From assembly GCF_017831975.1 (NCBI RefSeq), contig NZ_JAFDSS010000001.1:1-64000 (forward strand): DNA of 64,000 bases, given 5' to 3'. The notes under the pieces are model-generated. The model had not been told where the DNA came from. It did no database searches and saw nothing but the letters and a program-made list of their open reading frames with translations. The position numbers and the translations under genes were made by a program. This DNA comes from Microbacterium terrae (GTDB lineage: Bacteria > Actinomycetota > Actinomycetes > Actinomycetales > Microbacteriaceae). Each line of letters begins with the position of its first letter. The stretch's first letter is position 1. Positions 46,801 through 64,000 of this stretch are shown piece after piece.

Positions 46801-46824
46801 GCGGCCTGTTCAGGCCACCGGGCG

Positions 46825-47094: not shown

Positions 47095-47106
47095 GGGTCG
47101 ATCCTC

Positions 47107-47937: not shown

Positions 47938-48832
47938 TGGGGGCTCCTTGTGCGACGAGGTGGCCGGGACTGATCTCCACCAGGGGACCGGATGCGCCCC
48001 GCGGAGGCATGGTGAGGGACGCGGTGCCCCGGGGAACACGGCCCACCTCGGCGGCGGCGAGGAGTGCGCGGGTGTACGGATGTGCGGGGCGGTCGTATAC
48101 GTCGAGGACGTCGCCGCACTCGAGCAGCCGGCCGTCGCGCATGACGGCGATGCGGTCGGCCACACCGCCACTGAGCCCGAGGTCGTGGGTGATGAGGATC
48201 ATTCCCGCTCCCGTCTTCGAACGAGCGTCGGCGAGCACGCGCATCACCTGTGCCTGCACGGTCACGTCGAGTGCCGTCGTCGGTTCGTCGGCGATGAGCA
48301 GAGCCGGGTCGTTCGCCACCGCCATCGCGATCATCGCGCGCTGCCTCATCCCACCCGACCACTGGTGAGGGTACGCGCGAGCCATCTCCGCCGGACGCCG
48401 GATCCCGACGTTCTCGAACAGGTCGACGGCGAGGGCCCGGGCACCGCGCCGGGAGAGCCCGGGACGGTGCTGCCGGAGCGACGAAGCCAGTTGCGTCCCC
48501 ACTCGCCGCAGCGGGTTCAGTGCGGTCAGCGGGTCTTGGAAGATCATCGACACCGACCGGCCGCGGAGGCTTCGCAGCTGCGCGTCGGTCGCCTCGCGCA
48601 GACTTTCGCCGCGGAGGCGGATGTCGCCGGAGGCGATCCGCACACTGGGCGGGAGGAGGCCGATCGCGGCGAGCATGGTGAGCGTCTTCCCGCTCCCCGA
48701 TTCGCCCACGAGGCCCAGCACCTCGCCCTCCTCGACCGTGAGCGACAGGCCGTGCACCAGATCACGCTCGGTGCCGTCGGGTTCGGTCGCGCGGAGCACG
48801 AGTCGGTCGATCTCCAGCAGTGGGGTGCTCAA
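47930..48832 (-). CDS. Dipeptide/oligopeptide ABC importer ATPase (DppD type)
   Basis: 300 residues. TTG 48832 overlaps the upstream stop (TTGA) and lies six bases after AAGGA. Walker [13 protein letters not shown]-loop [16 protein letters not shown], signature [14 protein letters not shown], Walker [16 protein letters not shown] and THDLGLSGG fit DppD. The C-terminal oligopeptide-transporter extension ([21 protein letters not shown]) is present. Both ATPases of the operon use TTG starts with overlapping stops, which keeps expression low and balanced. Confidence 0.93.
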
Positions 48833-49725
48833 CGGTGTTCCTTCCGGCCCAGGACGAAATCGCCGTTCTCCGTGGTGAATCGCTGGCTGATGAAGGCTGC
48901 CCCGCCGATGACGAAGAACATCGCGATGCCGGGGAGAAGGGCTTGACTCGGCACGAGACGCATCATGCGCTGCCCCTCGAAGATCATCCCGCCCCACGTC
49001 GGCGTCGGTGGCTGCACGCCGAGGCCGAGGTAATCCAGTCCGGCGAGGATCAGCATCACCGCACCGATATCGGTCACCGTCACGATCAGGAGCGGGCCGG
49101 CGACAGACGGGAGGATGTGACGGCGCAGCACGTGCGCGGTGGTGGCGCCCTGGAGGATCGGTGCCAGCACGAAGTCCCGATCACGCAGCGACATGGCGAT
49201 GCTGCGCGCGACGCGCGCATACCCCATCCAGTACGACACTCCGAGCACGACCACGGTGAGCCCGACGCTGCTGCCCAGGGTCGCGGCGAGCGCCATGAGG
49301 AGGAGCACGACAGGCAGGGCGAGTTGGACGTCCGACACCGTGCTGAGTGCGTTGTCCGCCCATCCTCCCCGATAGCCGGCGATCAGTCCGATGATCGTTC
49401 CGATGATCAGGTTGATGAGGACGATCGCGAGCGTGAGGAGGAGGCTGATGCGCCCTCCGAGGGCGAGGCGGCTCATCATGTCGCGCCCGAGTGCATCGGT
49501 GCCGAGCGGGTGCGCAGCATCCTGGAAGGCGGGCAGATTCGTTGCGCTCAGATCTTGACCCATCGGGTCGAAATCGGGAAGGAGCGGCACGATGACGACG
49601 AAGGCGACGACCGTTGTGAGGAAGGCGACGCCGACGAGGATCAGCGGACGCGCGCTGCCGCGTCGACGAGAACGGGGTGGAAGGGCGCCCGACGAGGTCG
49701 GTGCCGCCAGGATCGCGTCGGTCAT
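48829..49725 (-). CDS. Dipeptide/oligopeptide ABC permease (DppC type)
   Basis: 298 residues. ATG 49725 overlaps the DppB-like stop (ATGA). One N-terminal membrane helix, then the DppC N-terminal pattern HPLGTDALGRDMMSRLALGGR, and five more helices with the ATPase loop (RSIAMSLRDRDFVLAPILQGATT, degenerate EAA). LDYLGLGVQPPTPTWGGMI near the end is a strong DppC mark. It forms the pore with DppB. Confidence 0.94.
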   Translation of the reverse strand: MTDAILAAPTSSGALPPRSRRRGSARPLILVGVAFLTTVVAFVVIVPLLPDFDPMGQDLSATNLPAFQDAAHPLGTDALGRDMMSRLALGGRISLLLTLAIVLINLIIGTIIGLIAGYRGGWADNALSTVSDVQLALPVVLLLMALAATLGSSVGLTVVVLGVSYWMGYARVARSIAMSLRDRDFVLAPILQGATTAHVLRRHILPSVAGPLLIVTVTDIGAVMLILAGLDYLGLGVQPPTPTWGGMIFEGQRMMRLVPSQALLPGIAMFFVIGGAAFISQRFTTENGDFVLGRKEHR

Positions 49726-50642
49726 CGGATTCTCACTCTCGGGTCGAGGACACGATGCAGGATGTCGTTCAGCACGTTCACCACGATGAACCCGACAGCG
49801 ACGACGAGGAGCGCCGCCTGGACGACCGGGAAGTCTCGCTGAGCGACTGCTTCGATCAGGGCGGAGCCGATCCCCGGCCACGCGAACACCTGCTCCACGA
49901 TGACCGTTCCGCCGAGGAGCATCGCGAGGTTGAGACCTGCGACGGTGAGGACGGGGAGGAAGGCATTGGGAAGGACGTCGAGGACGAGGATGCCGGCTCG
50001 AGATCTCCCTGCGGCACGGGCGGTCCTGACGTAGTCCATGCGGGTCTGCTCGGCCATCTCCGCGTCGAGCAGTCGCACGTAGAGGACGAACTGACCCGTC
50101 GCGATGGTCAGGATCGGCAGGATGTAGGCCGCAGGCGACGCCGCTCCGAGCGACGGCAGCCAGCCAAGCATCACGGAGAAGATCAGCACGGCGAGCACAC
50201 CGAAGAAGAAGTCGGGCACGGAGTGACGAAGGGTCCCCGACCAGAGGAACACCGCACGCAGGCGGCGGCTGGCGGCGAAGTAGATCGCCAGGACCGCTGC
50301 GACGGCGACGGCCAGCCCGATCGCGAAGGCCGGGAGCGCGAGCGAGATCGTCGCGGGCATCCGCTCCCACACGATCGCCAGAGCGGGGGTGCCGGGGCGG
50401 CGGTAGGAGTCGCCGAAGTCTCCGACGAGCGCGCCGGTGGCGAAGTCCACGAACTGGACCGGCAGCGGCCGATCGAATCCCATCGAGCGCTCGAGGTCCG
50501 CGACCTGCTGCGGTGTCGCGTTCTCGCCCAGGAGCAGTGCGGCCGGCGAGCCGGTGAGGCGCCCCAGCGTGAACGCGACGACGAGCACGATCGCGATCGT
50601 CGTCGCAGCCTGCAGCACTCTGCGGATCACATAGGTGAGCAT
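49722..50642 (-). CDS. Dipeptide/oligopeptide ABC permease (DppB type)
   Basis: 306 residues. ATG 50642 was chosen over ATG 50648 because it stands six bases after GAAGGG. MLTYVIRRVLQAATTIAIVL is the typical first helix of DppB. FVDFATGALVGDFGDSYR is the usual external loop; the ATPase loop reads MDYVRTARAAGRSRAGILVLDVLPNA, and GGTVIVEQVFAWPGIG closes the domain. Encoded 53 bases after the binding-protein gene. Confidence 0.94.
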   Translation of the reverse strand: MLTYVIRRVLQAATTIAIVLVVAFTLGRLTGSPAALLLGENATPQQVADLERSMGFDRPLPVQFVDFATGALVGDFGDSYRRPGTPALAIVWERMPATISLALPAFAIGLAVAVAAVLAIYFAASRRLRAVFLWSGTLRHSVPDFFFGVLAVLIFSVMLGWLPSLGAASPAAYILPILTIATGQFVLYVRLLDAEMAEQTRMDYVRTARAAGRSRAGILVLDVLPNAFLPVLTVAGLNLAMLLGGTVIVEQVFAWPGIGSALIEAVAQRDFPVVQAALLVVAVGFIVVNVLNDILHRVLDPRVRIR

Positions 50643-50695
50643 CGACATCCCTTCGACTGCGGGGCGGACGATCGTTGATCGCCCGCCCCGGATCA

Positions 50696-52207
50696 TCAGT
50701 CCGCTACGCGGATGTCCTGCACGCGGAAGATGCCGTCTGCAGCCGGAGACCAGTCGAACGAGGGGTCGATCGCGTACGTGTAGTTGTTCGCGTACAGCGG
50801 CACCGTCTGGACGTTCGCGTCGTTGAGCGCCCAGATGTCGCGATACACGTCGTCACGCTCCTCGCCGACCGCTGCCTGCTGCGTGGAGTAGAGCTCGACC
50901 ATCTCCGGGGTGCCGAAGTAGTCCTCGGGACCGCCGGCGAGCAGCTGACTGACCACGACGTCGCCGTCCATCACGGACGGCGCCCACCCGTTGAGGTAGA
51001 GGCCCGAGACCGCGTGATCGGCGAGTGCGAGCGAGAACGTGGCCTGATCGGTGCCGGCGAGCTCGATGTTCAGGCCGATCTCGGTCAGCGTCCCGGCGAT
51101 CGCCTGCGCGACGTCGCCGGCCTGCGACATGCCCCCCGACGACGCGTATTGGAGGGTGATCGGAGTTCCGTCGTAGTCGGAGCCCGCAACGAGTGCCGCC
51201 GCGGCGTCGAGGTCGGCGGCGGGAACCGGGTAGTCGGCGACGTTGCCCTGCACGCCCTCGGCGAGCAGCTGGCCGGTCGGCGTCGCGAGACCACCCAGCA
51301 GGTTGGCGGTGAGTTCATCGCGATCGACGGCCAGGGCGATCGCCTCGCGGATCTGCACATCGGCGAGGGGCGCCGCAGCGGGGTTGATGCCGAGGAAGGC
51401 GACCTGGTTGCCGGGCGCGGTCGCGACCTCGACTGCCGGGTTCGCCTCCACCACGGGTACCTGACTGGCCGGGATCGATGCGATGTCGAGAGTGCCCGAT
51501 TCGACGCCGGTGACGCGGGCGTCCTCAGCCCCGACGAAGGCGAACGTGACGTCGGCGACCTCGGGCGCGTCGCCCCAGTACTCGTCGTTGCGCGTCACCA
51601 CATAGTCGACCCCCGCAGACTGCGAGACGAACTTGTACGGGCCCGTTCCCACCGGCGCCTCAGCGAACCGGCCGTCGGCGTCCGCATATGCGACGGCCGG
51701 GACGATGCCGATCGTGCCGACCATCGATGGCCATGCGGCGTACGCGTTGTTCAGTGTGAACACCACGCGCCCTGCGTCATCGGACTCCACCGTCGAGAGC
51801 ATGGAGATCGCCGCACGGTTCGTCGACTCCGGCGAGGCCAGGATCGTCTCATATGTCGCGACGATGTCATCGGCGGTCACGGCCGTGCCGTCGTGGAAGA
51901 CGACGCCGTCGCGGAGCACGAAAGTCCAGGTGGTGAGGTCCGCGCTGGACTCCCACTCGGTCGCCAGGCCCGGTTCGATCGTCCCGTCCGACGCGATGCG
52001 GGTCAGGCCGTCGTACAGCGCGTAGTAGATGTTCCACGCGGCGACCGAGCGGGTCATGATCGGGTCGGTTCCCGGCGGCTCGGCCGGAAGGGCGATCACA
52101 GCCGAGACCTCTTCTGCGGATGTCGGCTCGGCGTCGCCGGCGCACCCGGCGAGGACGAGTCCGCCGGCGATCGTGAGCGCGATGGCGGAGGTCCGGCGTC
52201 GGTTCAT
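50696..52207 (-). CDS. Family 5 lipoprotein solute-binding protein of the Dpp/Opp importer
   Basis: 503 residues. Signal peptide with MNRRR start and lipobox LAGC (Cys22). The family 5 fold is shown by NIYYALYDGLTRI, WTFVLRDGVVFHDGTAVTADDIV, VGTGPYKFV and IREAIALAVDRDEL. Such proteins bind peptides but also nickel, sugars or opines, so the ligand is open; the neighbouring ornithine-cyclodeaminase-like gene hints at an amino-acid-like compound. First gene of the leftward operon. A GntR-type palindrome stands 29 bases upstream of its start. Confidence 0.93.
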   Translation of the reverse strand: MNRRRTSAIALTIAGGLVLAGCAGDAEPTSAEEVSAVIALPAEPPGTDPIMTRSVAAWNIYYALYDGLTRIASDGTIEPGLATEWESSADLTTWTFVLRDGVVFHDGTAVTADDIVATYETILASPESTNRAAISMLSTVESDDAGRVVFTLNNAYAAWPSMVGTIGIVPAVAYADADGRFAEAPVGTGPYKFVSQSAGVDYVVTRNDEYWGDAPEVADVTFAFVGAEDARVTGVESGTLDIASIPASQVPVVEANPAVEVATAPGNQVAFLGINPAAAPLADVQIREAIALAVDRDELTANLLGGLATPTGQLLAEGVQGNVADYPVPAADLDAAAALVAGSDYDGTPITLQYASSGGMSQAGDVAQAIAGTLTEIGLNIELAGTDQATFSLALADHAVSGLYLNGWAPSVMDGDVVVSQLLAGGPEDYFGTPEMVELYSTQQAAVGEERDDVYRDIWALNDANVQTVPLYANNYTYAIDPSFDWSPAADGIFRVQDIRVAD

Positions 52208-52235
52208 GTCTGGTCCATTTCATCGAGGTGGAGCA

Positions 52236-52256
52236 TTTGGTATTCCATCTACCAAA
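52236..52256 (-). promoter_or_regulatory. Probable GntR operator before the Dpp-type importer operon
   Basis: TTTGGTA-N7-TACCAAA is a perfect inverted repeat with 7-base arms. A second copy of its core, TGGTA-N7-TACC, lies at 53404-53420. FCD-type GntR proteins bind short TGGTA/TACCA-like palindromes, and one is encoded at 54452. A promoter was not clearly located. Confidence 0.65.
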
Positions 52257-52334
52257 AGTCTGTCCGGCTCGTCGACGTCATGCCAAACCGGCGACGCTTC
52301 CTTTACGCGGAGTTCACGCCGCGAAACATCCGCG

Positions 52335-53378
52335 TTACACGACCACCGCTGCGAGCACCTGGGGCTTGCCGGGAACCGTCACGCGGGTGACCGAATCGTC
52401 GTCGAGCGCGACGAGCGTGAGACCGTCCCAGGGGCCACGGCTCGTCGACCCGCCGGTGAGAACGGCGTACGCGCGGGTGTCCGCCGGGTCTCTCCAGAAG
52501 ATGACGTTCTCGTGCCCGCGATCGAGTTCGACGAGCCGCTCCGCTCCTGTCGCAAGGTCGCGGACGGTGAGGCTCGGGCCGAGCTTCGCGCCACCCACCT
52601 GGCCGACGCCGACGACGAGCAGCCGGCCGTCGTCGGTCAGGGCGACCCCGTGCTGATGGGTGTCGCCGGTCATCGGCTCCGTGCGATGCGCCCCGGTCGC
52701 ACCGTCGATCACGAGCAGCCCTCGTCCTTGATACGGCAGGTAGATGGTCTCGTCCTCCGCAACAGCGGCGTAGTGCGGCTTCATGTGGGACATGTGCCCA
52801 CCGGCGGTTCCGAAAGGCGCGATTTCCTGGACTTTTACCGCGTGGCTTGCAATGTCGATCGTGTGAAGGGTGAACGAGTCGTGATCGATCGAATGCACCG
52901 AACGGCCATCGGCCGAGCGCACCAGATCGAACGGTCGCTCCCCGATCTCCACGCTGTCGACCACGGCGCCGACGGCCGTGTCGACCACCTCGACCGACGA
53001 CATCCGTCCCTCGCGGTGCACGCCGACGAAGAAGGTCCTGCCGTCGGGTGCGGCGACGATGCCGGTGCCGCCCGGGCGGTATTCGCCATACGCGATTGTG
53101 TCCGGTGCGTCGCGGTACGGGATCAGGCCGGTGAGCTCCGTGACCTGCCGATCGACGAGTGAGACGCCCCGGGCGGTGGCGACGGCGACGGTGCCGTCGG
53201 TCGGGCTGACGGCGACGCCCCACGGTGCGGGGCCGACGTCGACGGTCCGCCGCGCGACGCTGTCCGCGGCGCGCCCGGCGAGGTCGACGAGCGCGATCTC
53301 CGAGCCTTCGGACAGGGTCGCGACGAAGGTCGACGCGGTGTGGGGAGCGGCGGCTGATCGGTGCATCGAGGTGGTCAT
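52335..53378 (-). CDS. YncE-like beta-propeller protein
   Basis: 347 residues, no signal peptide or membrane segment, so cytoplasmic. Repeats of about 45 residues with VxPDGxxxxV-type strands are seen (VAVSPTDGTVAVAT, VAAPDGRTFFVGV, LVRSADGRSVHSI, ALTDDGRLLVVGV), enough for a seven-bladed propeller. HMSHMKPHYAAVAEDETIYL and GDTHQHG contain His clusters that could bind metal. Lactonase-like or ligand-binding roles are possible; no catalytic set is certain. It lies between two copies of the putative GntR operator and is divergent from the ornithine-cyclodeaminase-like gene. Confidence 0.75.
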   Translation of the reverse strand: MTTSMHRSAAAPHTASTFVATLSEGSEIALVDLAGRAADSVARRTVDVGPAPWGVAVSPTDGTVAVATARGVSLVDRQVTELTGLIPYRDAPDTIAYGEYRPGGTGIVAAPDGRTFFVGVHREGRMSSVEVVDTAVGAVVDSVEIGERPFDLVRSADGRSVHSIDHDSFTLHTIDIASHAVKVQEIAPFGTAGGHMSHMKPHYAAVAEDETIYLPYQGRGLLVIDGATGAHRTEPMTGDTHQHGVALTDDGRLLVVGVGQVGGAKLGPSLTVRDLATGAERLVELDRGHENVIFWRDPADTRAYAVLTGGSTSRGPWDGLTLVALDDDSVTRVTVPGKPQVLAAVVV

Positions 53379-53403
53379 GAGTCTCCTTCTGACGGAACTG
53401 ATC

Positions 53404-53420
53404 TGGTATACAAGATACCC
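53404..53420. promoter_or_regulatory. Second GntR-type operator, in divergent gap
   Basis: TGGTA-TACAAGA-TACCC has the same TGGTA-N7-TACC plan as the site at 52236-52256, with one arm mismatch. It lies in the 80-base gap between the divergent genes at 53378 and 53459, where one bound dimer could control both. Confidence 0.6.
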
Positions 53421-53458
53421 AAAGGCGCCGTTATCCCAACCCGCAGGAAAGAGCCGCG

Positions 53459-54442
53459 ATGACCCTCTTGCTCACTCGAAGCGTGCTCGAGCAACTCGTC
53501 GACCCGGCGGCGACCGTCGCCGCCGTTCGGGCTGCCCTGTGCGCGGTCGAGCAGTCGGCGGCGTTCCAGCCTGCACCGTCGATCGTCACAGCAGCCCACG
53601 TCCCAGAGGAGTTCCTGGTGATGGCGGCGTCGGGCCACGACGACCTCGTCGCGGCGAAGCTCATGAGCGACATCCCGGCGAATGCCGGGCGAGGACTGCC
53701 CACCCAGCGGTCGGCCATTCTCATCACGCGGCTCAGCGACGGGGTTCCGGTCGCGATTCTCGACGGGAAGGTGCCGACACGCGAGCGCACAGCAGCGGCG
53801 ACCGCCGTCGCGACGGACGCGCTCGCGCGCGCCGACAGCGTGGAGCTCGCTCTGATCGGGGCGGGCGGACTGGCTGCACCCCACGTGCGCGCGCTCTGCG
53901 AGGTGCGGCAGTTCCGGCGCGTGACGGTGTGGTCGCGTTCGAGCGAGCGCATCGAGGCGCTCCAGCTCGCGCTCGCCGACGTCGACGTCGAGGTGCGGGC
54001 TGCGCCCACGCCACAAGGCGCCGTACAGGGGGCCGACGTGGTCTGCACGCTCACCCCGGCTCGTCATCCCGTGCTCGAGGGTGCCTGGCTCGAACCGGGC
54101 CAGCACGTGAACGCGGTCGGTGCTCCACCCCGCGCCGATCATCGCGAGATCGACAGCGAGGTCGTGCGGCGGTCGAGCGTGTTCCTGGATGACGTCGCAA
54201 CCGCGATGGTGAAGTCCGGCGACGTGCTGATTCCACTCGGAGAGGGCATGATCGGGGCCGATGCTCTGCGCACGACGCTCGGTGCCGTGTTGAACGGCAC
54301 GCGACCGGGACGCACACATGAGAATGAGATCACTCTCTACAATTCCGTAGGAATCGGCGTGCAGGACCTTGCCGTGTCCGCGCTCTACATCGAGCGCGCG
54401 CGGGCTCGTGGACTCGGCCTCGAGGTGGATCTGGCTGCATAG
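53459..54442 (+). CDS. Ornithine cyclodeaminase/mu-crystallin family protein
   Basis: 327 residues. Substrate lobe has AKLMSDIPANAGRGLPTQRSAILITRLSDGVPVAILDG, with the Lys and Arg of the active site; the Rossmann domain has LALIGAGGLAAPHVRAL and VTVWSRSSER for NAD(P). GQHVNAVGAPPRADHREID carries the conserved Asp region. The family contains ornithine cyclodeaminases, alanine dehydrogenases, ketimine reductases and opine-type dehydrogenases; the sequence does not decide between them. ATG 53459 after AGGAAAGAG. Followed by the GntR gene after nine bases. Confidence 0.9.
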   Translation: MTLLLTRSVLEQLVDPAATVAAVRAALCAVEQSAAFQPAPSIVTAAHVPEEFLVMAASGHDDLVAAKLMSDIPANAGRGLPTQRSAILITRLSDGVPVAILDGKVPTRERTAAATAVATDALARADSVELALIGAGGLAAPHVRALCEVRQFRRVTVWSRSSERIEALQLALADVDVEVRAAPTPQGAVQGADVVCTLTPARHPVLEGAWLEPGQHVNAVGAPPRADHREIDSEVVRRSSVFLDDVATAMVKSGDVLIPLGEGMIGADALRTTLGAVLNGTRPGRTHENEITLYNSVGIGVQDLAVSALYIERARARGLGLEVDLAA

Positions 54443-54451
54443 GACGGGAAC

Positions 54452-55168
54452 ATGACCGAGCAAGACGATGCGGTGGGCCCCGTTCGCGACGTTCGCCGGC
54501 CGCTCGCGGTGGGCTCGACCTATCAGTCGCTCACCACGCAGGTGTTCCAGGAGTTGCGCGAGCGGATCATCGAAGGCCTCTACCCGCCCGGCACACGGCT
54601 GCCGGAGCGCGAGCTGTCGGAGGATCTGCAGGTCTCCCGCATTCCGATCCGAGAGGCACTGCCTCGGCTCGAAGCCGAGGGGTACATCGTGACGATGCCG
54701 CGTCGGGGAGCGATCGTACGGCAGCTCACCCTGCGCGACATCGAGGAGCTGTTCGACCTGCGCATCACGCTCGAGGTGTTCGCCGCCCGTCAAGCAGCGC
54801 TGCGCGCGCAGACGACGCCGCCGGGACCGCAGCTGCGGGAGCTCGTCGCCCGTGCCCTCGAGTTCACCGAGCAGCACAGCGAGCACGAGATCTCCTCGGT
54901 CAACAGCGCCATCCACGAAGAGATCGTCCGCCTCGCCGGCAACGATCTGCTCGGCAGTGTCATGCAGACCATCATGGGTCGATCTCGCTGGCTGTTCCGG
55001 CTGACCACGCAGCGCGACCAATCCGAGCAGTACCGCGAGCACACCGAGCTCGCCGACGCGATCTACGCCGGCGACGTCGAGCTCTCCGGAGCGATCGCGT
55101 ACTCGCACATCCAGAAGGGGCGCGCGCCGAGCATCGCTCTCCTGCACGATCGGCTGCCCGCTGAGTGA
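54452..55168 (+). CDS. GntR-family regulator, FCD subfamily
   Basis: 238 residues. Winged helix at about 25-90: LRERIIEGLYPPGTRLPERELSEDL and SRIPIREALPRLEAEGYI. The C-terminal all-helical FCD domain includes LFDLRITLEVFAARQAA, a His-bearing INSAIHEEIVRLAGN-like helix and RQSEQYREHTELADAI-like residues that usually bind a metal and an organic acid. It probably binds the TGGTA-N7-TACC sites at 52236 and 53404 and links expression of importer, propeller, cyclodeaminase-like enzyme and itself to an acidic metabolite. Confidence 0.92.
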   Translation: MTEQDDAVGPVRDVRRPLAVGSTYQSLTTQVFQELRERIIEGLYPPGTRLPERELSEDLQVSRIPIREALPRLEAEGYIVTMPRRGAIVRQLTLRDIEELFDLRITLEVFAARQAALRAQTTPPGPQLRELVARALEFTEQHSEHEISSVNSAIHEEIVRLAGNDLLGSVMQTIMGRSRWLFRLTTQRDQSEQYREHTELADAIYAGDVELSGAIAYSHIQKGRAPSIALLHDRLPAE

Positions 55169-55303: not shown

Positions 55304-58054
55304 ATGAGCGGCACACCCGGCCAGCCGAGGCTCGCCCTGTCGACCGTGTGCCTGTCGGGGACGCTCGAAGACAAGCTTGCTGCGACCGCGGCGGCCGGGT
55401 TCGCGGGCATGGAGATCCTCGACTACGACCTCGTCATGTCGCCGTGGTCCCCTCAGCGGCTCGCGGAAGAGGCGCGCGGGCGCGGCTTGTCGATCGAGGT
55501 CTACCAGCCGTTCCACCTCGAGACGGTGCCGCCCGATCAGTTCGATGGCACACTCCGCCACGCGGAGCAGAAGTTCCGATTGCTCTCCGAGCTTGGAGCG
55601 CGAGTGCTGGTGTGCTGCTCGACCCGCACCGAGCGCGGTCTCGACGATGACGATCTGGCGGCCGAGCAGCTGCACGTGCTCGCCGGCCGGGCCGCGGAGC
55701 ACGGCATCCGTCTCGCCTACGAGGCCGTCCCGTGGGGTCGCGTCCGCAGCCATGAGGATGCCTGGCGCCTCGTCGAGCGGGTCGATCACCCCGCCCTCGG
55801 ACTGTGTCTCGACAGCTCCCACGTGCTCGCGGGAGGCGGAGACCCGGCGGCGATCGCGCGCGTCGACGTGGACAAGGTGTTCCATGTGCAGCTCGCCGAC
55901 GCGCCCGCGGCGAGTCCTGACGTCCGCGAATGGAGCCTCCACCACCGGATGTTCCCCGGTCAGGGGTCGCTCGATGTAGCGGGCTTCCTTCGTCAGATCC
56001 TCGCGATGGGCTACGACGGCCCGATGGCGCTCGAGGTGTTCAATGACGTGTACCAGCAGGAGGATCCGCGGCATGCCGCGACGGATGCGATGCGGGCGAT
56101 GCTCGTGCTCGCCGAGACGGTCGGCGCAGCCGGGCTGCTCGGCACGCCGGATGGGATCGGCTCCGACGATCTGCCGCCCGCGCCCTCGCTCGGAGGATTC
56201 GCGTTCGCCGAGCTCGCGGTCGACCAGGTGTCGGCGCCGATCGTCGCGCGCACGCTCTCCGCGCTCGGCTTCGCGCACGTGGGTCAGCACCGGTCCATCC
56301 CGGTGCAGCTCTGGGAACAGGGCGACGCGCGAGTGCTCCTCAACTTCGCACCGCAGCGCACGATAGCGCCGGCGACCGCATCCATCTGCGCCTTCGCGGT
56401 CGAGAGCTCCGATCCGGAAGCGTCGATGGCCCGTGCGGCGCGACTGCTCGCGCCGAAGCTGCCTCGGCCGCGCCGCGCCGAGGAGGCGGACCTCAGCTCG
56501 GTCGCCACGCCCGACGGCACCGCGCTCTTCCTCTGCGCCGGCGACGGCGACGCAGACGGCGACAGCGACCCCGCCCGCGACTGGCTCGACGACTTCGCGC
56601 CGACGGGCATGCCGTCGCCCGCACGCCCCGTGCTCGATTCGATCGACCATCTCTCGATCACCGAGTCGATCGACGACTTCGACCAGTCGACGCTCTTCTA
56701 TCGTTCGGTGCTCGGACTCGTTCCCGGTGAGCCGACGGAGATCACCGCGCCGTTCGGCACCGTGCGGCGCTGGGCGGCGAGCGACCCCGGCGGTCGGGTG
56801 CGCGTGACGCTGAGTACGACGCCGCTTCGCCGAGGGGACTGGGCGCCGGCGGTCTCGAACCCGCAGGTCGTGGTGTTCTCGACTGCTGACGCCATCGCGT
56901 GTGCGCGGGCGCTGCGCGAGCGCGGCGCGCCGATCCTGCAGATGCCGGCCAACTACTACGACGACCTCGAAGGTCGACTCACGCTCCCCGACGGATTCGT
57001 CGACACCCTGCGCGAGCACTCGATCCTCTACGACCGCGATGAGAGCGGTGAGTATCTGCACATGTTCACCGAGATGCTCGGGTCGCGGGTGTTCTTCGAG
57101 ATCGTGCAGCGCATCGACGGGTACAGCGGGTTCGGCGCCGCGCAGAGCATCCCGCTGCGGATGGCGGCGCATCGGCGCCAGCGACTGCGGATGCTCGCCG
57201 TCGCCCCGACGACCGCGTCGCCGGACGATCCGCACCAGTACTCGCTCGCGCACCTGACGGCGCTGAGCCTGTCGCCGCCCGAGCTGGTGGATGCCGCGGC
57301 CGCGGCCGGGTACCGCTATGTGGGTCTCCGCATGACCAAGGTCACCGCCGAGGAGCCGCACTATCCACTGACCTACGATCCTGCGCTCATGCGGGCGACC
57401 AAGACCCACCTCGCCGCGACCGGTGTCGAAGTGCTCGACATCGAGCTCGCGCGCTTCACCTCCGGCGACAGCCCCCGCGACTACCTCCGCTTCCTCGAGG
57501 CCGGTGCCGAACTCGGCGCGCGTCACGTCATCACGCAGCTTCCCGATGCGGACTTCGCTCGCAAGACCGACCGATTCGCCGAGCTCTGCCAGCTTGCCCT
57601 GCCGCTCGGCCTCACGGTCGACCTCGAGTTCCCGTCGTGGACGGAGACGCCGAACCTGACGGAGGCCACCCGGGTGCTTCGCACCGCCGACCAGCCGAAC
57701 GCCGGCATGCTCATCGACGTGCTGCACTTCGCGCGGTCAGGATCGAGCGTCGACGAGCTCCGCGCCCTGCCGCGCGAATGGTTCCACTACGCGCACGTCT
57801 GCGACGCTCCCGGCGAGATCCCGACGACGACGGCCGGGCTCATCCACACGGCGCGGTTCGAGCGGCTCTATCCGGGCGACGGCGATCTCGACATCCACGC
57901 GATCCTGGGAGCGCTGCCCGCGGGCATCCCGTACGCGCTCGAGATCCCGCGCGCGATGCTCGTCGCCCAGGTCGGCGCGAAGGAGCACGCGCGGCTCGCG
58001 ATCGGCGCCGCCCGTCGCGACCTCGACGACGTGGCGGCTCTCGCCGCGATGTGA
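55304..58054 (+). CDS. 3-dehydroshikimate dehydratase-like TIM::HPPD protein with an extra TIM barrel
   Basis: 916 residues; QuiC-type two-domain enzymes are near 630. Domain 1 (about 1-290) is a xylose-isomerase-like TIM barrel with metal ligands Glu140 (AYEAV), Asp170 (CLDSS), Gln196 (HVQLAD) and Glu244 (ALEVF), as in 3-dehydroshikimate dehydratases. Domain 2 (about 310-610) is 4-hydroxyphenylpyruvate-dioxygenase-like with His449 (IDHLSI), His586 (YLHMF) and Glu599 (FFEIVQR) as the metal triad. Domain 3 (about 645-905) is a second isomerase-type TIM barrel (LSPPELVDAAAAAGYRYVGL, DVLHFARSG, ALEIPRAM). It may turn 3-dehydroshikimate into protocatechuate and isomerise another intermediate. GAGGCGG precedes ATG 55304. 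The real substrate could differ. Confidence 0.85.
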   Translation: MSGTPGQPRLALSTVCLSGTLEDKLAATAAAGFAGMEILDYDLVMSPWSPQRLAEEARGRGLSIEVYQPFHLETVPPDQFDGTLRHAEQKFRLLSELGARVLVCCSTRTERGLDDDDLAAEQLHVLAGRAAEHGIRLAYEAVPWGRVRSHEDAWRLVERVDHPALGLCLDSSHVLAGGGDPAAIARVDVDKVFHVQLADAPAASPDVREWSLHHRMFPGQGSLDVAGFLRQILAMGYDGPMALEVFNDVYQQEDPRHAATDAMRAMLVLAETVGAAGLLGTPDGIGSDDLPPAPSLGGFAFAELAVDQVSAPIVARTLSALGFAHVGQHRSIPVQLWEQGDARVLLNFAPQRTIAPATASICAFAVESSDPEASMARAARLLAPKLPRPRRAEEADLSSVATPDGTALFLCAGDGDADGDSDPARDWLDDFAPTGMPSPARPVLDSIDHLSITESIDDFDQSTLFYRSVLGLVPGEPTEITAPFGTVRRWAASDPGGRVRVTLSTTPLRRGDWAPAVSNPQVVVFSTADAIACARALRERGAPILQMPANYYDDLEGRLTLPDGFVDTLREHSILYDRDESGEYLHMFTEMLGSRVFFEIVQRIDGYSGFGAAQSIPLRMAAHRRQRLRMLAVAPTTASPDDPHQYSLAHLTALSLSPPELVDAAAAAGYRYVGLRMTKVTAEEPHYPLTYDPALMRATKTHLAATGVEVLDIELARFTSGDSPRDYLRFLEAGAELGARHVITQLPDADFARKTDRFAELCQLALPLGLTVDLEFPSWTETPNLTEATRVLRTADQPNAGMLIDVLHFARSGSSVDELRALPREWFHYAHVCDAPGEIPTTTAGLIHTARFERLYPGDGDLDIHAILGALPAGIPYALEIPRAMLVAQVGAKEHARLAIGAARRDLDDVAALAAM

Positions 58055-58088
58055 AGCACCCGCGGGCTGATGCTCGCGGGTGCTTCAC
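58051..58088. terminator. Bidirectional hairpin between convergent genes
   Basis: Arms 58051-58064 and 58075-58088 pair perfectly over 14 bases around a 10-base loop. The left arm contains the TGA stop of the fusion gene. The convergent ThDP gene ends at 58100. A strong terminator for both directions is likely. Confidence 0.85.
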
Positions 58089-58099
58089 CACAGCCGGGG

Positions 58100-59863
58100 T
58101 CAGTCGGTCGCGACGTGCTCCAAGCTCGCGCCGGGCGAGTAGATGTCCATGATGTTCCAGTGCCCCGCGGTGGGCGTGGGGACGTTGACCATCGACACGT
58201 CGATCACCACGGGGCCGCCGTCGGCGATGGCACGCTCCAGTGCGGGCTTGAACTCCGCGGCGGACGACACCTTTATGCCGGTGACACCGTACGCCTCGGC
58301 GATCGCCGCGAAGTCGGTGTACATCGGATCGCCGTCCGTGCCGAACACCGTGCCGTACGTCGTGTCGAAGGCCGCCTTCTCGAGGCCCGCGATCGTGCCG
58401 AAGGCGTTGTTGTTCATGACGACCCAGACGGCCGCGACATTCTTCTCGCGAGCGGTGGCGAGGACGGCCGGATTCTGACCGAAACCGCCGTCGCCGACGA
58501 GCGAGACGACGACGCGGTCCGGACGGGCGATCTTGGCGCCGACGGCCGCCGGCGCGCCGAAGCCCATCGTCGCGAAGCCGCCCGGGGTGAGGAACGTGCC
58601 GGGGGTGAGGATGTCGAACTGCTGCCCGACGCCGTTCTTGTTCCATCCCACGTCGGTGGTGATGATCGCGTCGGCGGGGAGCACCTCCCTCGTCTCGGAC
58701 AGGATGCGCTCCGGCCGCATCGGCCAGGCGTCGGATGCCTGGGCCTCGGTGTTGCGACTGCGCTGGTCGGCGCGGTCGGCCGCGATCTTCGCCAGCAGCT
58801 CCGGGCGGTCGACGCCTGCGGGTGCGAGGCGCCGGGCGACCCGCAGGAGCACGGTGAGGGCCGCCTTGATGTCGGCGATGGCGCCGATCTCGAGCGGATA
58901 GTTGCGACCGAGCTCGGCAGGATCGATGTCGATCTGCATGAGCTTCGTCGCGGGGATGTCGAAGGTGTACTCGGCGTACCACGAGCTGGAGTCGGCCTCG
59001 GCGAAGCGGGTGCCCAGCGCGAGGATCCAGTCCGCGGTGCGGGTGGTCTCGTTGACGAAGGCCGTGCCCCAGAATCCGGTCATGCCGAGGACAAGCGGGC
59101 TGTCGTCCCGGAGCGCGCCTTTGCCCATGAGACTGTGAGCGACCGGGAGCGACAGGAGCTCGGCGAACTCCTCCAGCTCGGCGGCGGCGTCGCCGCCCAC
59201 GATCCCGCCTCCCACGTAGAGCACCGGCCGATTTGCTGCGAGCAGGTTCTTGACGATCCGCTCGGCGACGTCCTCGTCGAGACTGGGCTTGACGAGCGCC
59301 CTCGTGTTGCTGAGCACCTTGTCGAAGAGGGCGGTGTCGACCTCCGCCGAGAAGACGTCCATGGGCACGTCCACGAGGACCGGACCCGGCCTGCCGCTCT
59401 CTGCGAGGGTGAACGCCTTGTCGAGCACCTCGGCGACGAGGTGCGGCTGGTCCACGCGCCAGGCGCGCTTCACGAACGGGCGATAGATCTCGTACTGCGC
59501 GGCATCGGCGTGGAGGTTGATCTCCTGGTGCGGGTGCTTGCCGAAGTAATGGCTGGGAACGTCGCCGGCGATCACCACCATCGGAATCGAGTCGAGGGCG
59601 GCGTTCGCGACGCCGGTCGCGGCGTTCGTCATGCCGGGTCCGAGGTGGGTGAGCACGACGGCGGCGCGCTGAGTGACCCGTGCGTAGCCGTCGGCGGCGT
59701 GGGCGGCGATCTGCTCGTGGCGCACGTTGACGAACGAGATGCTCTCGCTCTTCTCCAGTGCAGCCAGCAGAGCGATGTTCGTGTGACCGCACAGGCCGAA
59801 GATGTGCTCGACGGCGCGCGCTTCGAGATAGCGGACGATCTGGTTCGAGACCAGGTCTTTCAT
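58100..59863 (-). CDS. ThDP-dependent enzyme of the acetolactate-synthase/decarboxylase superfamily
   Basis: 587 residues, three-domain layout. ATG 59863 is six bases after AAGGAG; ATG 59878 contains that element and is less likely. Glu50 in RHEQIAAHAADGYAR is the cofactor-activating Glu. The central domain follows (VLYVGGGIVGGDAA) and the ThDP motif is GDGGFGQNPAVLATAREKN..NN near residue 455. HLGPGMTNA and GDVPSHYFGKHPHQE replace the usual acetolactate-synthase loops, so substrate differs; no FAD requirement is evident. In an operon with a citryl-CoA-lyase-like and an acylating aldehyde dehydrogenase it may decarboxylate a 2-oxo acid to the aldehyde, or ligate aldehydes. No known enzyme is assigned. 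Confidence 0.82.
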   Translation of the reverse strand: MKDLVSNQIVRYLEARAVEHIFGLCGHTNIALLAALEKSESISFVNVRHEQIAAHAADGYARVTQRAAVVLTHLGPGMTNAATGVANAALDSIPMVVIAGDVPSHYFGKHPHQEINLHADAAQYEIYRPFVKRAWRVDQPHLVAEVLDKAFTLAESGRPGPVLVDVPMDVFSAEVDTALFDKVLSNTRALVKPSLDEDVAERIVKNLLAANRPVLYVGGGIVGGDAAAELEEFAELLSLPVAHSLMGKGALRDDSPLVLGMTGFWGTAFVNETTRTADWILALGTRFAEADSSSWYAEYTFDIPATKLMQIDIDPAELGRNYPLEIGAIADIKAALTVLLRVARRLAPAGVDRPELLAKIAADRADQRSRNTEAQASDAWPMRPERILSETREVLPADAIITTDVGWNKNGVGQQFDILTPGTFLTPGGFATMGFGAPAAVGAKIARPDRVVVSLVGDGGFGQNPAVLATAREKNVAAVWVVMNNNAFGTIAGLEKAAFDTTYGTVFGTDGDPMYTDFAAIAEAYGVTGIKVSSAAEFKPALERAIADGGPVVIDVSMVNVPTPTAGHWNIMDIYSPGASLEHVATD

Positions 59864-59874
59864 GGCGTGCTCCT

Positions 59875-60720
59875 TCATTGCTCGCGCTCGAGGGGAACGG
59901 ATCGGCGTGCCGGCCCGGTGTACGTGTAACCGATCGACTTCGGGGTGGGTCCTTTGATGCGGCCGCCCTGCAGCAGCTGCTCGTTCGCGTGGGCGAGGAT
60001 GCCCACCGAGCGCGACAGGATGAAGACGCCGCGACCGAGCTCCGGAGTCAGGCCGAGCTCGCAGTAGATGACCGCTGTCACACCGTCGACGTTCATCGGG
60101 ATGCGCTGCGGGCGTCCTTCGCTGATGGCGTCCTCCACGGCGCGCCCGATGGCGGCGAAGCGTCCGTCGACGTCGTCGCTCGCGCTCGCGGCGTCGACGA
60201 GGGCGAGCAGCCGCGGGGTGCGCGGGTCGAGCGGATGCCAGCGGTGGCCGAATCCGGGGACGTAGCGCTCGCCGGCGTCTCGTCTGCGCTGCAGCACGGT
60301 GCGGACCGCCGACGCGAGGTCGCCGTCGTCGCCGAGCTCCGCGTCGACGGCGTAGTACAGCTCCATGCACTGCTGTCCGGGGCCGCCGTGCACGTCGTCG
60401 AGCACGTTGATCGCCGACGCCATCGCATTGTTGATGCGCGCACCGCAGGTCATCGCCATCCGCGCGATCGCGATCGACGGCGCCTGCGGGCCGTGGTCGA
60501 CCGAAGACACGAGTGCGGCTTCGAAGAGCGCGGACTGCGCGCGTGTGGGCAGGTCGCCGCGGAGCATGAGCCAGATCGCGTCGACGAAGCTCACGTTGCC
60601 GATCAGCTCCTGGACCGGATATCCGCGCAGGTCGATCTCACCCGGGCGCACCTCGATGATCTCGGTCTGCCACCAGCGACGCGCTTCGTCGACGAGTTCC
60701 TCGGGCGTGCCGCCGGTCAT
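59875..60720 (-). CDS. Citrate-synthase-fold, citryl-CoA-lyase-like protein
   Basis: 281 residues, shorter than citrate synthase (about 370-430) and missing its N-terminal part. The active-site His pair is present: VHGGPG with His111 and GFGHRWHPLDPR with His159; a downstream MNVDGVTAVIYCELGL region would supply the catalytic Asp, which is also seen as Asp in VDGVT. Such short proteins are usually annotated citryl-CoA lyase. It may cleave or make a citryl-CoA-like thioester from the acyl-CoA produced by the neighbouring dehydrogenase. ATG 60720 overlaps the dehydrogenase stop (ATGA); the ThDP gene starts 12 bases after its end. Confidence 0.8.
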   Translation of the reverse strand: MTGGTPEELVDEARRWWQTEIIEVRPGEIDLRGYPVQELIGNVSFVDAIWLMLRGDLPTRAQSALFEAALVSSVDHGPQAPSIAIARMAMTCGARINNAMASAINVLDDVHGGPGQQCMELYYAVDAELGDDGDLASAVRTVLQRRRDAGERYVPGFGHRWHPLDPRTPRLLALVDAASASDDVDGRFAAIGRAVEDAISEGRPQRIPMNVDGVTAVIYCELGLTPELGRGVFILSRSVGILAHANEQLLQGGRIKGPTPKSIGYTYTGPARRSVPLEREQ

Positions 60721-62156
60721 CGCCCGGTTCCCGTCGCCTCGAGCGCGGAATCGTAGAAGTCCCCGAAGAGCTCTTCGTCGGACGGGCGGTCCTCCGCGAT
60801 GGTGCGTGAGACCCAGGTCGAGTTGAGGTAGTGGCGCAGCGAGACGTTCTCCGAGGTGATGTTGCCGCCCCAGGTGCCGCATCCCATCGACGAGGTCATC
60901 GGCATGCCGTTGGTGAACGAGCCGGCGTTTGCCTTGGAGTTGGGCTGGCGGACCATGATGCGCGAGACCGGCATGTGCCGCGCGAAGTAGTCGATGTGCG
61001 CGTCGTCGGTCGACGCGATGCCGCACGAGTGCCCCTTGCCGCCGATGTCGTAGAGCCGCTTCGCGACCTCGACGCCGTCTTCGAAGCCGCCGTCGTACGG
61101 ATGGACGGCCATCAGCGTGGTCAGCTTCTCTTTGCAGAACTGCCGGTCCTCGGCGATGCCGTCGCCTTCGACCACGATGAATCGCCTGTCGTCGGGGATG
61201 TCGAAGCCTGCCGCCCGCGCGAGAGCTTGAGGCGACACGGCGACGGTGTCGGCGAGACGGTGCCCCTCGGCATCCCACATCACGGACTTCAGGGCTGCCC
61301 GCTCTTCGGACGTGGCGAGATACCCGCCCTCGGCCACGAGCGCGTGGAGCATGTCGGAGTAGCGGGATGCCGGCACCAGCACGTTGCCGTCGGCGGAGCA
61401 TCCCGAGCCGAAGTCCGACGTCTTCGAGAGCATGCAGTTGCGGGCGGTCTCGGCGATGTCGGCCGTCTCGTCGACGAACTCGGTGGCGTTGCCGGCGCCC
61501 ACTCCGTAGGCCGGCGTGCCCGAGCTGTACGCGGCACGCACGAGACCCTGACCGCCGGTCGCGATCACGAGATCCGACCGGCGCATGATCTCCTGCGACG
61601 CCGTGAGGCTCGGGAGCGTGATGCACTGCAGGATGTCTGCCGGGGCGCCTTCGGATTCGAGGGCCTCACGCATGAGGCGCACCGTCTCGAACGTGGTGTT
61701 CTTCGACCGCGGATGCGGCGAGAACACGACGACGTCACGCGCCTTGATCGCGTAGATCGCGTTGCCTGCGGGCGTGAGGTCGGGGTTCGTCGTGGGGACG
61801 ACGCATCCGATGATCCCCACCGGCTTGCCGTACTTCACGAGGCCCCGCGCAGCATCCTCCTCGATGATCCCGACCGAGGGGCTGCGGAGCGCGTCGCGGA
61901 GCACACCGCGGATCTTCATGCGCTTGTTCATGCGGCTCCCGTAGTCCCCGAGGCCGGATTCCTCGATGCCCATCTCGACGAGGCGATGGAACGAGGAGCG
62001 GTTCGCCACCGCCCAGGCGACCGCGCGGATGAGGCGATCGACGCGCTCCTGGTCGTAGGTCTCGATGACAGCCAGAGCAGCGCGGGCGCGCTCGAACACA
62101 TCGTCGAGCTCCGCCTCCTGCTCGCTCGAGAGCACTCTGCTCGCCGGTTCAGCCAT
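60717..62156 (-). CDS. Acylating (CoA-dependent) aldehyde dehydrogenase
   Basis: 479 residues. ATG 62156 follows GGAG by about six bases. KPVGIIGCVVPTTNPDLTP is the CoA/NAD-binding start shared with AdhE, EutE and sulfoacetaldehyde dehydrogenase. Catalytic Cys253 is in FGSGCSADGNVLV, and no partner Glu of non-acylating dehydrogenases is seen. SKANAGSFTNGMPMTSSMGCGTWGGNI closes the domain, with a pattern I associate with SauS/EutE-like enzymes. It should convert an aldehyde, CoA and NAD(P) to acyl-CoA. First gene of the leftward operon, divergent from the PQQ-type dehydrogenase across 293 bases. Confidence 0.88.
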   Translation of the reverse strand: MAEPASRVLSSEQEAELDDVFERARAALAVIETYDQERVDRLIRAVAWAVANRSSFHRLVEMGIEESGLGDYGSRMNKRMKIRGVLRDALRSPSVGIIEEDAARGLVKYGKPVGIIGCVVPTTNPDLTPAGNAIYAIKARDVVVFSPHPRSKNTTFETVRLMREALESEGAPADILQCITLPSLTASQEIMRRSDLVIATGGQGLVRAAYSSGTPAYGVGAGNATEFVDETADIAETARNCMLSKTSDFGSGCSADGNVLVPASRYSDMLHALVAEGGYLATSEERAALKSVMWDAEGHRLADTVAVSPQALARAAGFDIPDDRRFIVVEGDGIAEDRQFCKEKLTTLMAVHPYDGGFEDGVEVAKRLYDIGGKGHSCGIASTDDAHIDYFARHMPVSRIMVRQPNSKANAGSFTNGMPMTSSMGCGTWGGNITSENVSLRHYLNSTWVSRTIAEDRPSDEELFGDFYDSALEATGTGR

Positions 62157-62449: not shown

Positions 62450-64000
62450 ATGCGCAAGCGACTGACCCGGCGGTTGGGTGCTGCAGGGATCGGAGCACTC
62501 GTCGTGCTCGCCCTCGCGGCCTCACCCGCGTACGGAATCGGGAGTCCCGCCGAGCCCGTTCCCCCAGCAGGACTGTCGGGACTGGATCCCACGGGTGCCG
62601 ACATGCCCACTGTCGGCGGCAACCTCGGCAACCAGCACTACTCCGGGCTGACCGACATCACCAAGAAGAACCTGAAGAAGCTCGCGCCGGCGTGGCGCAC
62701 GCATCTCTCGGAGGTGGCACCCGCTTCCGACGACGTCGGTCAGCAGACCACGCCGATCGTCGTCGACGGGATCATCTACCTCGACACGCCGAGCGGGGGA
62801 GTCATCGCCGTCGACGGCGCTTCGGGCGCACCGGTGTGGAAGTGGGAGAACGACGTCTACGGCCTGTCGGGCACGCGCCGGGGCGTGGCAGCCGGAGACG
62901 GGAAGATCTTCACCCTGGGGGGCGGCAACCGCGTCGTCGCACTCGACCAGGAGACCGGCGCCGAGGTGTGGGCGGTGCAGCCCACCGGGCCCGCGGGCGA
63001 AGACCTCGGTCGCGTCGGCAAGGTCGCGACCGTCTACTCGGACGGCATCGTGTACGCGCACGCCGCCGACGGTGACCGCGGCGCCGTCGTCGCGCTCGAT
63101 GCGAGCGACGGCTCGTACGTCTGGCACTTCTTCGGCGGCCCGCCCCGCGGCGAGGTGTTCACCGGGCTCGACGGCGTATCCTTCGACGCGTCGGCGACCT
63201 GGGGGCCTGTGCTCGCCGACGGCACCGACTGCTCGGAAGAGGGCGGGGCGACGTCGTGGATGCACGGCGCCGTCGACCCCGAACTGGGCATGTACTACAT
63301 GACCTTCGGCAATGCGCGCAGCTGCACGTCGTCGCAGAACGGGTCGCTGCGGCCGGGCGACAACCTGTTCTCGAGCACGCTCGTGGCGGTGGATGCCGCG
63401 ACCGGCGACTACAAGTGGCACTACCAGTCGATCCATCACGACGTGTGGGACATGGACAACGTCCACCCGCCGACACTGGCCGACATCGAGATCGCGGGCG
63501 AGGAGCGCAAGGTCCTCTTCTACGGCAGCAAGTCGGGCCACCAGTTCGTCCTCGACCGCACCGACGGCACTCCGGCGCTCCCCGTCGTCGAGAAGGAGAT
63601 GATCACGGACTCGCGCCAGGCTCACTCTGCGACGCAGCCGTTCCCCGAGAACCGGCTCCTGCCGGACTGCGTCGTGTGGGAGAAGCTCGACCCCGACAAC
63701 ATCCCCGGCGATCCCTGGCGCGCCGTGCCCAACTACAACGGCTACCAGCCCGACGCCGAGGGCAACCTCGTCTTCAACCCCGACAGCTACGTCGCGGCGG
63801 ACGAGCCGTTCCTGACGTATCCGGCCGGTTCGGCCGATCACCGCGAGGGATGCATGTACGACCCGCAGTGGGATCTGCCGATCCTGTCGACGACGAGCCA
63901 GAACGGTGGCGCGGACTGGTCGAACAACGCGTACAGCCCGCGGACGAACCTCGTCTACTACCCCTACGGCACCAACCCCGTGGCCCACTGGAACGGAGCG
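62450..64000 (+). CDS. Secreted PQQ-type quinoprotein dehydrogenase (3' end outside window)
   Basis: 517 codons are present and the frame is open at the right edge. AAGGAG is six bases before ATG 62450. A Sec signal peptide ends near residue 29 (ALAASPAYG), with no lipobox, so the protein is exported. Tryptophan-docking propeller repeats are visible: VAVDGASGAPVWKWE, VALDQETGAEVWAV, VALDASDGSYVWHF and VAVDAATGDYKWHY. YQSIHHDVWDMDN has the catalytic Asp (334) and a second acid two residues on (336). It should oxidise an alcohol or sugar in the extracytoplasmic space, with PQQ and calcium or a lanthanide. The aldehyde or lactone formed may supply the divergent acylating dehydrogenase. Confidence 0.88.
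   Translation, partial: MRKRLTRRLGAAGIGALVVLALAASPAYGIGSPAEPVPPAGLSGLDPTGADMPTVGGNLGNQHYSGLTDITKKNLKKLAPAWRTHLSEVAPASDDVGQQTTPIVVDGIIYLDTPSGGVIAVDGASGAPVWKWENDVYGLSGTRRGVAAGDGKIFTLGGGNRVVALDQETGAEVWAVQPTGPAGEDLGRVGKVATVYSDGIVYAHAADGDRGAVVALDASDGSYVWHFFGGPPRGEVFTGLDGVSFDASATWGPVLADGTDCSEEGGATSWMHGAVDPELGMYYMTFGNARSCTSSQNGSLRPGDNLFSSTLVAVDAATGDYKWHYQSIHHDVWDMDNVHPPTLADIEIAGEERKVLFYGSKSGHQFVLDRTDGTPALPVVEKEMITDSRQAHSATQPFPENRLLPDCVVWEKLDPDNIPGDPWRAVPNYNGYQPDAEGNLVFNPDSYVAADEPFLTYPAGSADHREGCMYDPQWDLPILSTTSQNGGADWSNNAYSPRTNLVYYPYGTNPVAHWNGA

Follow-up and report, generated by a model that had tools for sequence, protein, structure and literature searches.

The first 64,000 nucleotides of contig NZ_JAFDSS010000001.1 of Microbacterium terrae (GCF_017831975.1), hereafter the window, carry one tight minus-strand operon (62156-58100) of three adjacent genes, which encode an acylating aldehyde dehydrogenase, a citryl-CoA-lyase-like protein and a thiamine diphosphate (ThDP) enzyme. 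We propose that this trio forms the lower half of a route that degrades quinate without aromatising it, and shikimate as well where a dehydroquinase links in, a reading that the balance of evidence slightly favours. In its general form, the proposal is an oxygen-free quinate and shikimate pathway, present in aerobes and in anaerobes including Clostridia, in which no aromatic compound arises: a ThDP hydrolase opens the saturated ring, and the final cleavage of homocitryl-CoA yields acetyl-CoA and 2-oxoglutarate; we give this general form an even chance of being correct. The initial annotation, made from the sequence alone, had labelled the three enzymes and grouped them into one undescribed pathway leading from a 2-oxo acid through an aldehyde to an acyl-CoA, which would be condensed with or released from a citrate-type acid. 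Family searches matched the three labels, a single undescribed pathway from an aldehyde through an acyl-CoA to a retro-Claisen release is supported, and the trio co-occurs in conserved neighbourhoods. The genes are closely packed, since the lyase start overlaps the end of the dehydrogenase gene by 4 bases and the ThDP start lies 11 bases past the lyase end; an alternative ThDP start, the upstream ATG at 59878, would overlap the lyase gene.

We infer every substrate, intermediate and product of the route, together with its direction, as follows. First, a dehydrogenase of the pyrroloquinoline quinone (PQQ) type or an NAD quinate/shikimate dehydrogenase would produce 3-dehydroquinate, the PQQ-type enzyme oxidising quinate outside the cell. 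A TIM barrel related to QuiC and IolE would then remove the C5 hydroxyl and keep the C1 tertiary alcohol, giving 1-hydroxy-3,4-dioxocyclohexane-1-carboxylate. Cyclic 1,2-diones are the substrate type of IolD and of cyclohexane-1,2-dione hydrolase (CDH). The ThDP enzyme would hydrolyse the C3-C4 bond of this dione so that the aldehyde is left on the short C3 arm, the product being homocitrate semialdehyde. The acylating dehydrogenase would turn the semialdehyde into homocitryl-CoA, a step that a plain aldehyde dehydrogenase and a CoA transferase would perform elsewhere. Finally, the citryl-CoA-lyase-like protein, or elsewhere a protein like 3-hydroxy-3-methylglutaryl-CoA (HMG-CoA) lyase, would split homocitryl-CoA into acetyl-CoA and 2-oxoglutarate. 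Quinate and homocitrate both have seven carbons, and seven would enter and seven leave. The route needs no oxygen and would therefore fit the clostridial carriers, Clostridia being anaerobes.

The conservation of the neighbourhood was examined by querying GTDB genome contigs with an alignment of six ThDP proteins and taking the best 80 of 555 confirmed relatives. Genes were tagged by tblastn at E 1e-9 with a small set of references, some of them taken from these same loci. Absences were counted only where a locus was at least 15 kb long (56 loci, the other 24 being shorter), with the window and five extra loci (L039, L044, L045, L048 and L049) excluded. For the Streptomyces and Nonomuraea plasmid records, which carry no annotation, open reading frames were called from their length and from the GC content at each codon position. 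The grouping is found again far outside the window genome, its carriers in the census including Actinomycetes, Bacilli, Clostridia, alpha- and betaproteobacteria, Desulfobacteria and Synergistia. The most frequent tag over the 80 loci was TIM2, the second barrel of a fusion protein encoded next to the trio (62 loci), followed by the acylating dehydrogenase (56), AroE-type dehydrogenases (42), the large subunit of a tripartite ATP-independent periplasmic (TRAP) transporter (37), and the citryl-type and HMG-CoA-lyase-like lyases (31 each). VOC (24), TIM1 (23), plain aldehyde dehydrogenase (18), AroD (15), AroQ (13) and the PQQ-type dehydrogenase (3) were rarer, and CoA transferase was tagged in 20 loci; those of its tags with 30-36% identity may include unrelated transferases. 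In the long loci, AroE, AroD or AroQ was found in 37 of 56 and a TIM barrel in 47; in 39, an acylating dehydrogenase was encoded on the same strand no more than 4 kb away. When plasmids were searched with the lyase, Azoarcus KH32C was retrieved, in which an IclR regulator (opposite strand), VOC, a TIM barrel, a CoA transferase, the lyase, the ThDP enzyme, a shikimate dehydrogenase and AroD follow one another in this order. The actinobacterial records L048 and L049 and the relatives L044 and L045 repeat the theme with a PQQ-type dehydrogenase present. The ThDP gene was also seen in Oscillospiraceae and Clostridium symbiosum (L105, L117, L118, L123 and L124); all but one of these five loci also have a tag for the TRAP large subunit. 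Lawsonibacter asaccharolyticus is a species associated with coffee and quinic acid.

Two parts of the system alternate. The 56 long loci have the citryl-type lyase only (25), the HMG-CoA-lyase-like protein only (22) or neither (9), and none has both (Fisher p 9.6e-9, phylogeny ignored). Both families belong to one reaction type, the retro-Claisen release of acetyl-CoA from a 3-hydroxyacyl-CoA. The activation step is likewise provided in two ways: the acylating dehydrogenase alone in 38 loci, an aldehyde dehydrogenase with a CoA transferase alone in 10, both in 3 and neither in 5. All four pairings of activation type and lyase type were found, and the lyase state changes at least 6 times on the ThDP tree when L048 is left out. 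Since two lyases replace each other, as do two ways of forming an acyl-CoA, the pattern suggests an order of aldehyde, acyl-CoA, then acetyl-CoA and a carbonyl acid, whatever the substrate.

The same logic could act on a different ring, such as a cyclitol acid or another hydroaromatic compound related to quinate, which would account for the 19 of 56 long loci that have no AroE, AroD or AroQ nearby. Relatives of the window lyase (L040, L041, L042 and L043) lie beside a CoA transferase, an aldehyde dehydrogenase, an FAD oxidoreductase or a TctABC-type transporter, and the annotation of the stretch shown includes no ThDP gene; at a Methylobacterium lyase locus, a gene annotated as acetolactate synthase is about 3.6 kb away. 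Because these relatives occur without an annotated ThDP gene, the lyase family is probably wider than the proposed pathway, and it may serve several routes through 3-hydroxy-3-carboxyacyl-CoA compounds. Quinate/shikimate-type enzymes are nevertheless found in most long loci and in the cluster of the window itself, and we regard a different ring substrate as improbable.

A role in ring opening is suggested by a motif of the ThDP enzyme. The protein is over the cut-off of none of the 25 families listed out of 54, the IolD model not being among these 25; its best score is to acetolactate synthase (411 bits, equivalog cut-off 538). It has Glu50, His27 within a GH motif, and GDGG at 457. We compared it with the CDH of Aromatoleum diolicum 22Lin (L137; 1341 bits over 589 residues to 2pgn) and with the IolD of the window's own genome (L003; 812 bits, cut-off 715), to which it is 27% and 25% identical, respectively. 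In the alignment, its G-H pair falls at CDH positions 27-28 (His28) and is common to CDH and IolD, the GHT of CDH being aligned to the GHT of the window enzyme. According to its title, the solved structure 4d5g is of a variant altered at two residues, one of which is His28. GH is absent from all eight other ThDP proteins read in the window and A. diolicum 22Lin genomes, namely acetolactate synthases L001, L130 and L131, glyoxylate carboligase L133, Xsc L134, indolepyruvate decarboxylases L135 and L136, and L004, for which no model matched at E 1e-150. It is also absent from BbmA and a further acetolactate synthase in printed alignments. In the ThDP family, by contrast, GH is present in 86 of 86 rows, 83 of them with a cysteine before it, two reading GLTGHT and one truncated just before GHT. 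Another histidine, window His73, lies one column off CDH His76; IolD has no histidine there. The predicted fold (mean pLDDT 80.8, moderately confident, low at 114-121 and 488-511) matches CDH variant 4d5g with Z 39.3, and among the 50 rows listed Z ranges only from 42.0 to 38.8, so the fold comparison does not separate ring hydrolases from carboligases. We propose, on the motif and on the quinate/shikimate partners, that the enzyme hydrolyses the ring of a cyclohexane-1,2-dione, and for these two reasons the 2-oxo acid decarboxylase role first suggested for it appears less likely.

The dione itself would come from a TIM barrel. The gene convergent to the trio encodes a fusion of a first barrel (TIM1), an HPPD-like VOC domain and TIM2, the conserved partner of the ThDP enzyme. 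The TIM1-VOC part resembles the QuiC1 fusion 5hmq (397 bits); the score of the fusion on the 3-dehydroshikimate dehydratase QuiC model, 457 bits, is below the equivalog cut-off of 1200. When aligned to 5hmq, TIM1 retains E, D, Q and E (in YEAVPWGR, CLDSSHV, FHVQLADA and LEVFNDV), the metal ligands of QuiC1. TIM2 is xylose-isomerase-like and was predicted with high confidence (mean pLDDT 94.8). Its fold matches IolI (Z 29.5, root-mean-square deviation (rmsd) 2.3, 256 aligned), Lmo2234 (Z 29.4, rmsd 2.6, 259 aligned) and the QuiC1 barrel 5hmq (Z 28.5, rmsd 2.7, 260 aligned); IolE (Z 24.0) and AsbF (Z 23.4) score lower, among many isomerases and epimerases. Glu, Asp, His and Glu at fusion residues 775, 805, 831 and 880, the histidine being kept in nearly all of 26 rows, correspond to the metal set of the superfamily. 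We propose TIM2 as a candidate dehydratase that would produce the dione. Its likeness to isomerases and epimerases also suits a scheme in which the ThDP enzyme would cleave the C3-C4 bond of 3-dehydroquinate itself by a retro-benzoin reaction; the C3 aldehyde of the resulting dialdehyde would become a CoA ester, the lyase would release acetyl-CoA and a C5 2-oxo acid, and the barrel would act later as an isomerase or dehydratase. Acyloin-cleaving ThDP lyases such as benzaldehyde lyase are indeed among the structural neighbours of the enzyme. Such a scheme would produce a reactive dialdehyde as well as a C5 acid with no place in it, and the GH motif is common to both dione hydrolases, so we consider it unlikely.

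In the proposed quinate route, the window lyase would act as a homocitryl-CoA lyase. As initially noted, its length of 281 aa falls short of a citrate synthase, its best Pfam stretch being citrate synthase positions 168-353 of 357. It passes NCBIfam NF004864 (PRK06224 group 1) with 423 bits against a cut-off of 261, and the name of this family, citryl-CoA lyase, comes from annotation. His111, His159 and Asp212, of the citrate-synthase type, the catalytic set of citrate-synthase-type lyases, are conserved in all six aligned members and have counterparts in 6hxp. Taken at its name, the family would point to a citryl-CoA variant, in which the ThDP enzyme decarboxylates 4-carboxy-4-hydroxy-2-oxoadipate, from the 4,5-cleavage of protocatechuate or gallate, to citrate semialdehyde, which would then give citryl-CoA and finally acetyl-CoA and oxaloacetate. 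The resemblance of TIM1-VOC to the protocatechuate-making QuiC would agree with it. The complete, one-contig host genome has no match to PF00775 or PF02900 (LigB), VOC-type extradiol dioxygenases not having been searched, and for this reason we keep the decarboxylation of a ring-cleavage product only as a rival. Moreover, Clostridia among the carriers are anaerobes, no ring-cleaving dioxygenase was present among the recurrent neighbourhood clusters identified (only part of which were named), and free citrate needs no special lyase, yet clusters with an aldehyde dehydrogenase and a CoA transferase exist. The citryl-CoA variant is therefore quite unlikely; a plain citrate role, despite the family name, was rejected as the best reading on neighbourhood. 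As for PF00775, it had no match in 11 Clostridia and Tissierellia genomes with the ThDP gene, several of them metagenome-assembled. PF02900 matched in 14 of 20 carrier genomes, Clostridia included, and is thus unhelpful as a sign of aromatic ring cleavage outside the host.

The acylating dehydrogenase is nearest to the SauS, AdhE and acetaldehyde dehydrogenase models and is below the cut-off of all 14 families listed. Its candidate catalytic residue, Cys253, lies in GSGCSADGN, and we propose that it would convert homocitrate semialdehyde to homocitryl-CoA. A module for two-carbon (C2) aldehydes, as in the use of sulfoacetaldehyde, acetaldehyde or ethanolamine hinted at in the initial annotation, is very improbable: the acylating sulfoacetaldehyde dehydrogenase SauS is the closest NCBIfam model, but at 445 bits against an equivalog cut-off of 600, the ThDP enzyme scores 286 on the Xsc subfamily model PRK07525 against a cut-off of 620 and 1061 for a true Xsc, and the recurrent partners include quinate/shikimate enzymes, so that the sulfonate and ethanolamine readings were rejected on family cut-offs and gene context.

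Several points weigh against the proposed quinate route. In addition to the loci without AroE, AroD or AroQ, 9 of the 56 long loci have no TIM barrel in the stretch examined. As many have neither lyase, one of these nine genomes having a citryl-type lyase elsewhere over cut-off (the HMG-CoA-lyase-like family was not searched), and both are present in L048, one of the extra loci. For the two swaps, independent-pairs tests, with too few informative pairs, gave no significant result (median p 0.5 and 0.625). The overall similarity of the ThDP enzyme is highest to BbmA (351 bits) and acetolactate synthase (345 bits), CDH scoring 235; because of these higher scores, we propose a resemblance to ring hydrolases in mode of action and claim no membership of the CDH or IolD families. 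The lyase family carries the citryl-CoA name, and TIM1 is an intact QuiC-like domain that would make protocatechuate, a product for which the host, having neither PF00775 nor PF02900, would offer no outlet of those two kinds. The intradiol dioxygenase PF00775 is over cut-off in 3 of the 20 carrier genomes searched (L058, L085 and L091), which could therefore also use protocatechuate. The proposed dione could also dehydrate spontaneously to an aromatic compound. The PQQ-type dehydrogenase may have a substrate other than quinate, since it reaches the cut-off of none of the seven NCBIfam families listed and no PqqE was over cut-off in the host genome; it may use PQQ from outside or work without PQQ. 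Finally, a 2024 study linking quinic acid to a coffee-associated gut bacterium (PMC11602726) describes the enzymes of gut quinic acid degradation as mostly unknown, and the proposed gut routes that it mentions are an aromatising oxidation to protocatechuic acid and a reduction, neither of which is the route proposed here.

The features of the window and of its continuation are collected in Table 1. The PQQ-type dehydrogenase, previously predicted as a secreted partner across the promoter, is a real gene (62450-65137), but the partner role stands only in part: it was tagged in four of the five extra loci (L044, L045, L048 and L049, not L039) and in three of the 80 census loci. Its start is signal-peptide-like by eye, the Pfam PQQ domain passes for the part in the window, and its score on TIGR03075 (methanol/ethanol family) is 287 bits against a subfamily cut-off of 480. 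The AroE-type dehydrogenase of the cluster scores 360 bits on the shikimate dehydrogenase model PRK12549 (cut-off 235) and 234 bits on the quinate/shikimate dehydrogenase model PRK14027 (cut-off 515). The only other AroE-type gene of the host is at 1482020. It lies close to a type II dehydroquinase gene (1485735), the single one of the host genome, in which no dehydroquinase of type I was found.

Table 1. Positions of the trio, its neighbours and the genes that follow past the window end
Feature	Position	Strand	Remarks
Fusion TIM1 + HPPD-like VOC domain + TIM2	55304..58054	+	916 aa; convergent to trio; TIM2 at about residues 638-916
Terminator-like hairpin	58051..58088		arms of 14 bases, 58051-58064 and 58075-58088; between convergent genes; by eye
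ThDP enzyme	58100..59863	-	587 aa
Citryl-CoA-lyase-like protein	59875..60720	-	281 aa
Acylating aldehyde dehydrogenase	60717..62156	-	479 aa
PQQ-type dehydrogenase	62450..64000 in window (gene end 65137)	+	first 517 of 895 aa; divergent from trio
TRAP transporter, three parts (DctQ, DctM, DctP families)	65193-68623		host genome past window
Two IclR regulators	68682-70211		host genome past window
AroE-type dehydrogenase	70292-71278		in the window's cluster, past window end

Adjoining the cluster, 46700-55168 holds dipeptide-type ABC transporter genes with a solute-binding protein (by eye), an ornithine cyclodeaminase-family enzyme, a GntR/FCD regulator and a beta-propeller protein weakly similar to hydrazine synthase and to PQQ-associated propellers; these genes are possibly a separate operon. 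By eye, 10554-46800 has mostly the look of sugar and glycoside catabolism, with glycoside hydrolase-like proteins, LacI-type regulators and transporters. Within the phylum, the gene set is rare and patchy, as the ThDP enzyme was found at E 1e-140 in 3 of 396 sampled genomes and the lyase over cut-off in 4 of 58 near relatives, the host included in both counts. A genome of the same genus (G024, L046) has a CoA transferase and the lyase, over cut-off, at 9561-11536; the 20 kb examined around them gave no ThDP match.

Quinate, like shikimate a common plant acid, occurs in large amounts in plants and in coffee, and its anaerobic fermentation has been the subject of older work. No paper with the proposed route was found among the open-licence PMC literature, the listings being partial for several queries. 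If the proposal is true, it would provide named genes for an oxygen-independent quinate route and would make homocitryl-CoA a likely substrate of a family that at present bears the name citryl-CoA lyase. Moreover, the GH motif of the ThDP enzyme, together with its partners, would be a marker for finding quinate users in many environments.

The proposed route can be compared with several known systems. Among lyases, citryl-CoA lyase 6hxp, an enzyme of the reverse tricarboxylic acid cycle, is related in sequence and has the conserved H, H and D; the window lyase scores only 126 bits to it, and its context is quinate/shikimate and not citrate activation. The HMG-CoA lyase family (NF004283), over whose cut-off both members scanned were placed, replaces the citryl-CoA-lyase-like gene in other loci and has the same reaction type, whereas it is an unrelated protein family with no tag in the window's cluster. 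The catabolism of quinate and shikimate by QuiA, QuiB and QuiC through protocatechuate shares the entry enzyme type and the QuiC1-like TIM-VOC domain; in contrast, the window host has neither PF00775 nor PF02900, and the window adds a ring hydrolase candidate, an acylating dehydrogenase and a lyase. The CDH of A. diolicum 22Lin is a ThDP ring hydrolase with the aligned GHT and a matching predicted fold, but the window enzyme is only 27% identical to it and scores higher to acetolactate synthases and BbmA. The genome of this strain (locus L067) encodes CDH and, in a gene distinct from it, a close relative of the window enzyme (L132). The degradation of myo-inositol offers the same order of steps. 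There, IolG, IolE, IolD and the CoA-acylating IolA act in turn as a dehydrogenase, a TIM-barrel dehydratase, a ThDP enzyme hydrolysing a cyclic 1,2-dione and a CoA-acylating dehydrogenase. The substrate is different and IolD is only 25% identical to the window enzyme; unlike that pathway, the route proposed here would end with a retro-Claisen lyase of the citryl or HMG type.

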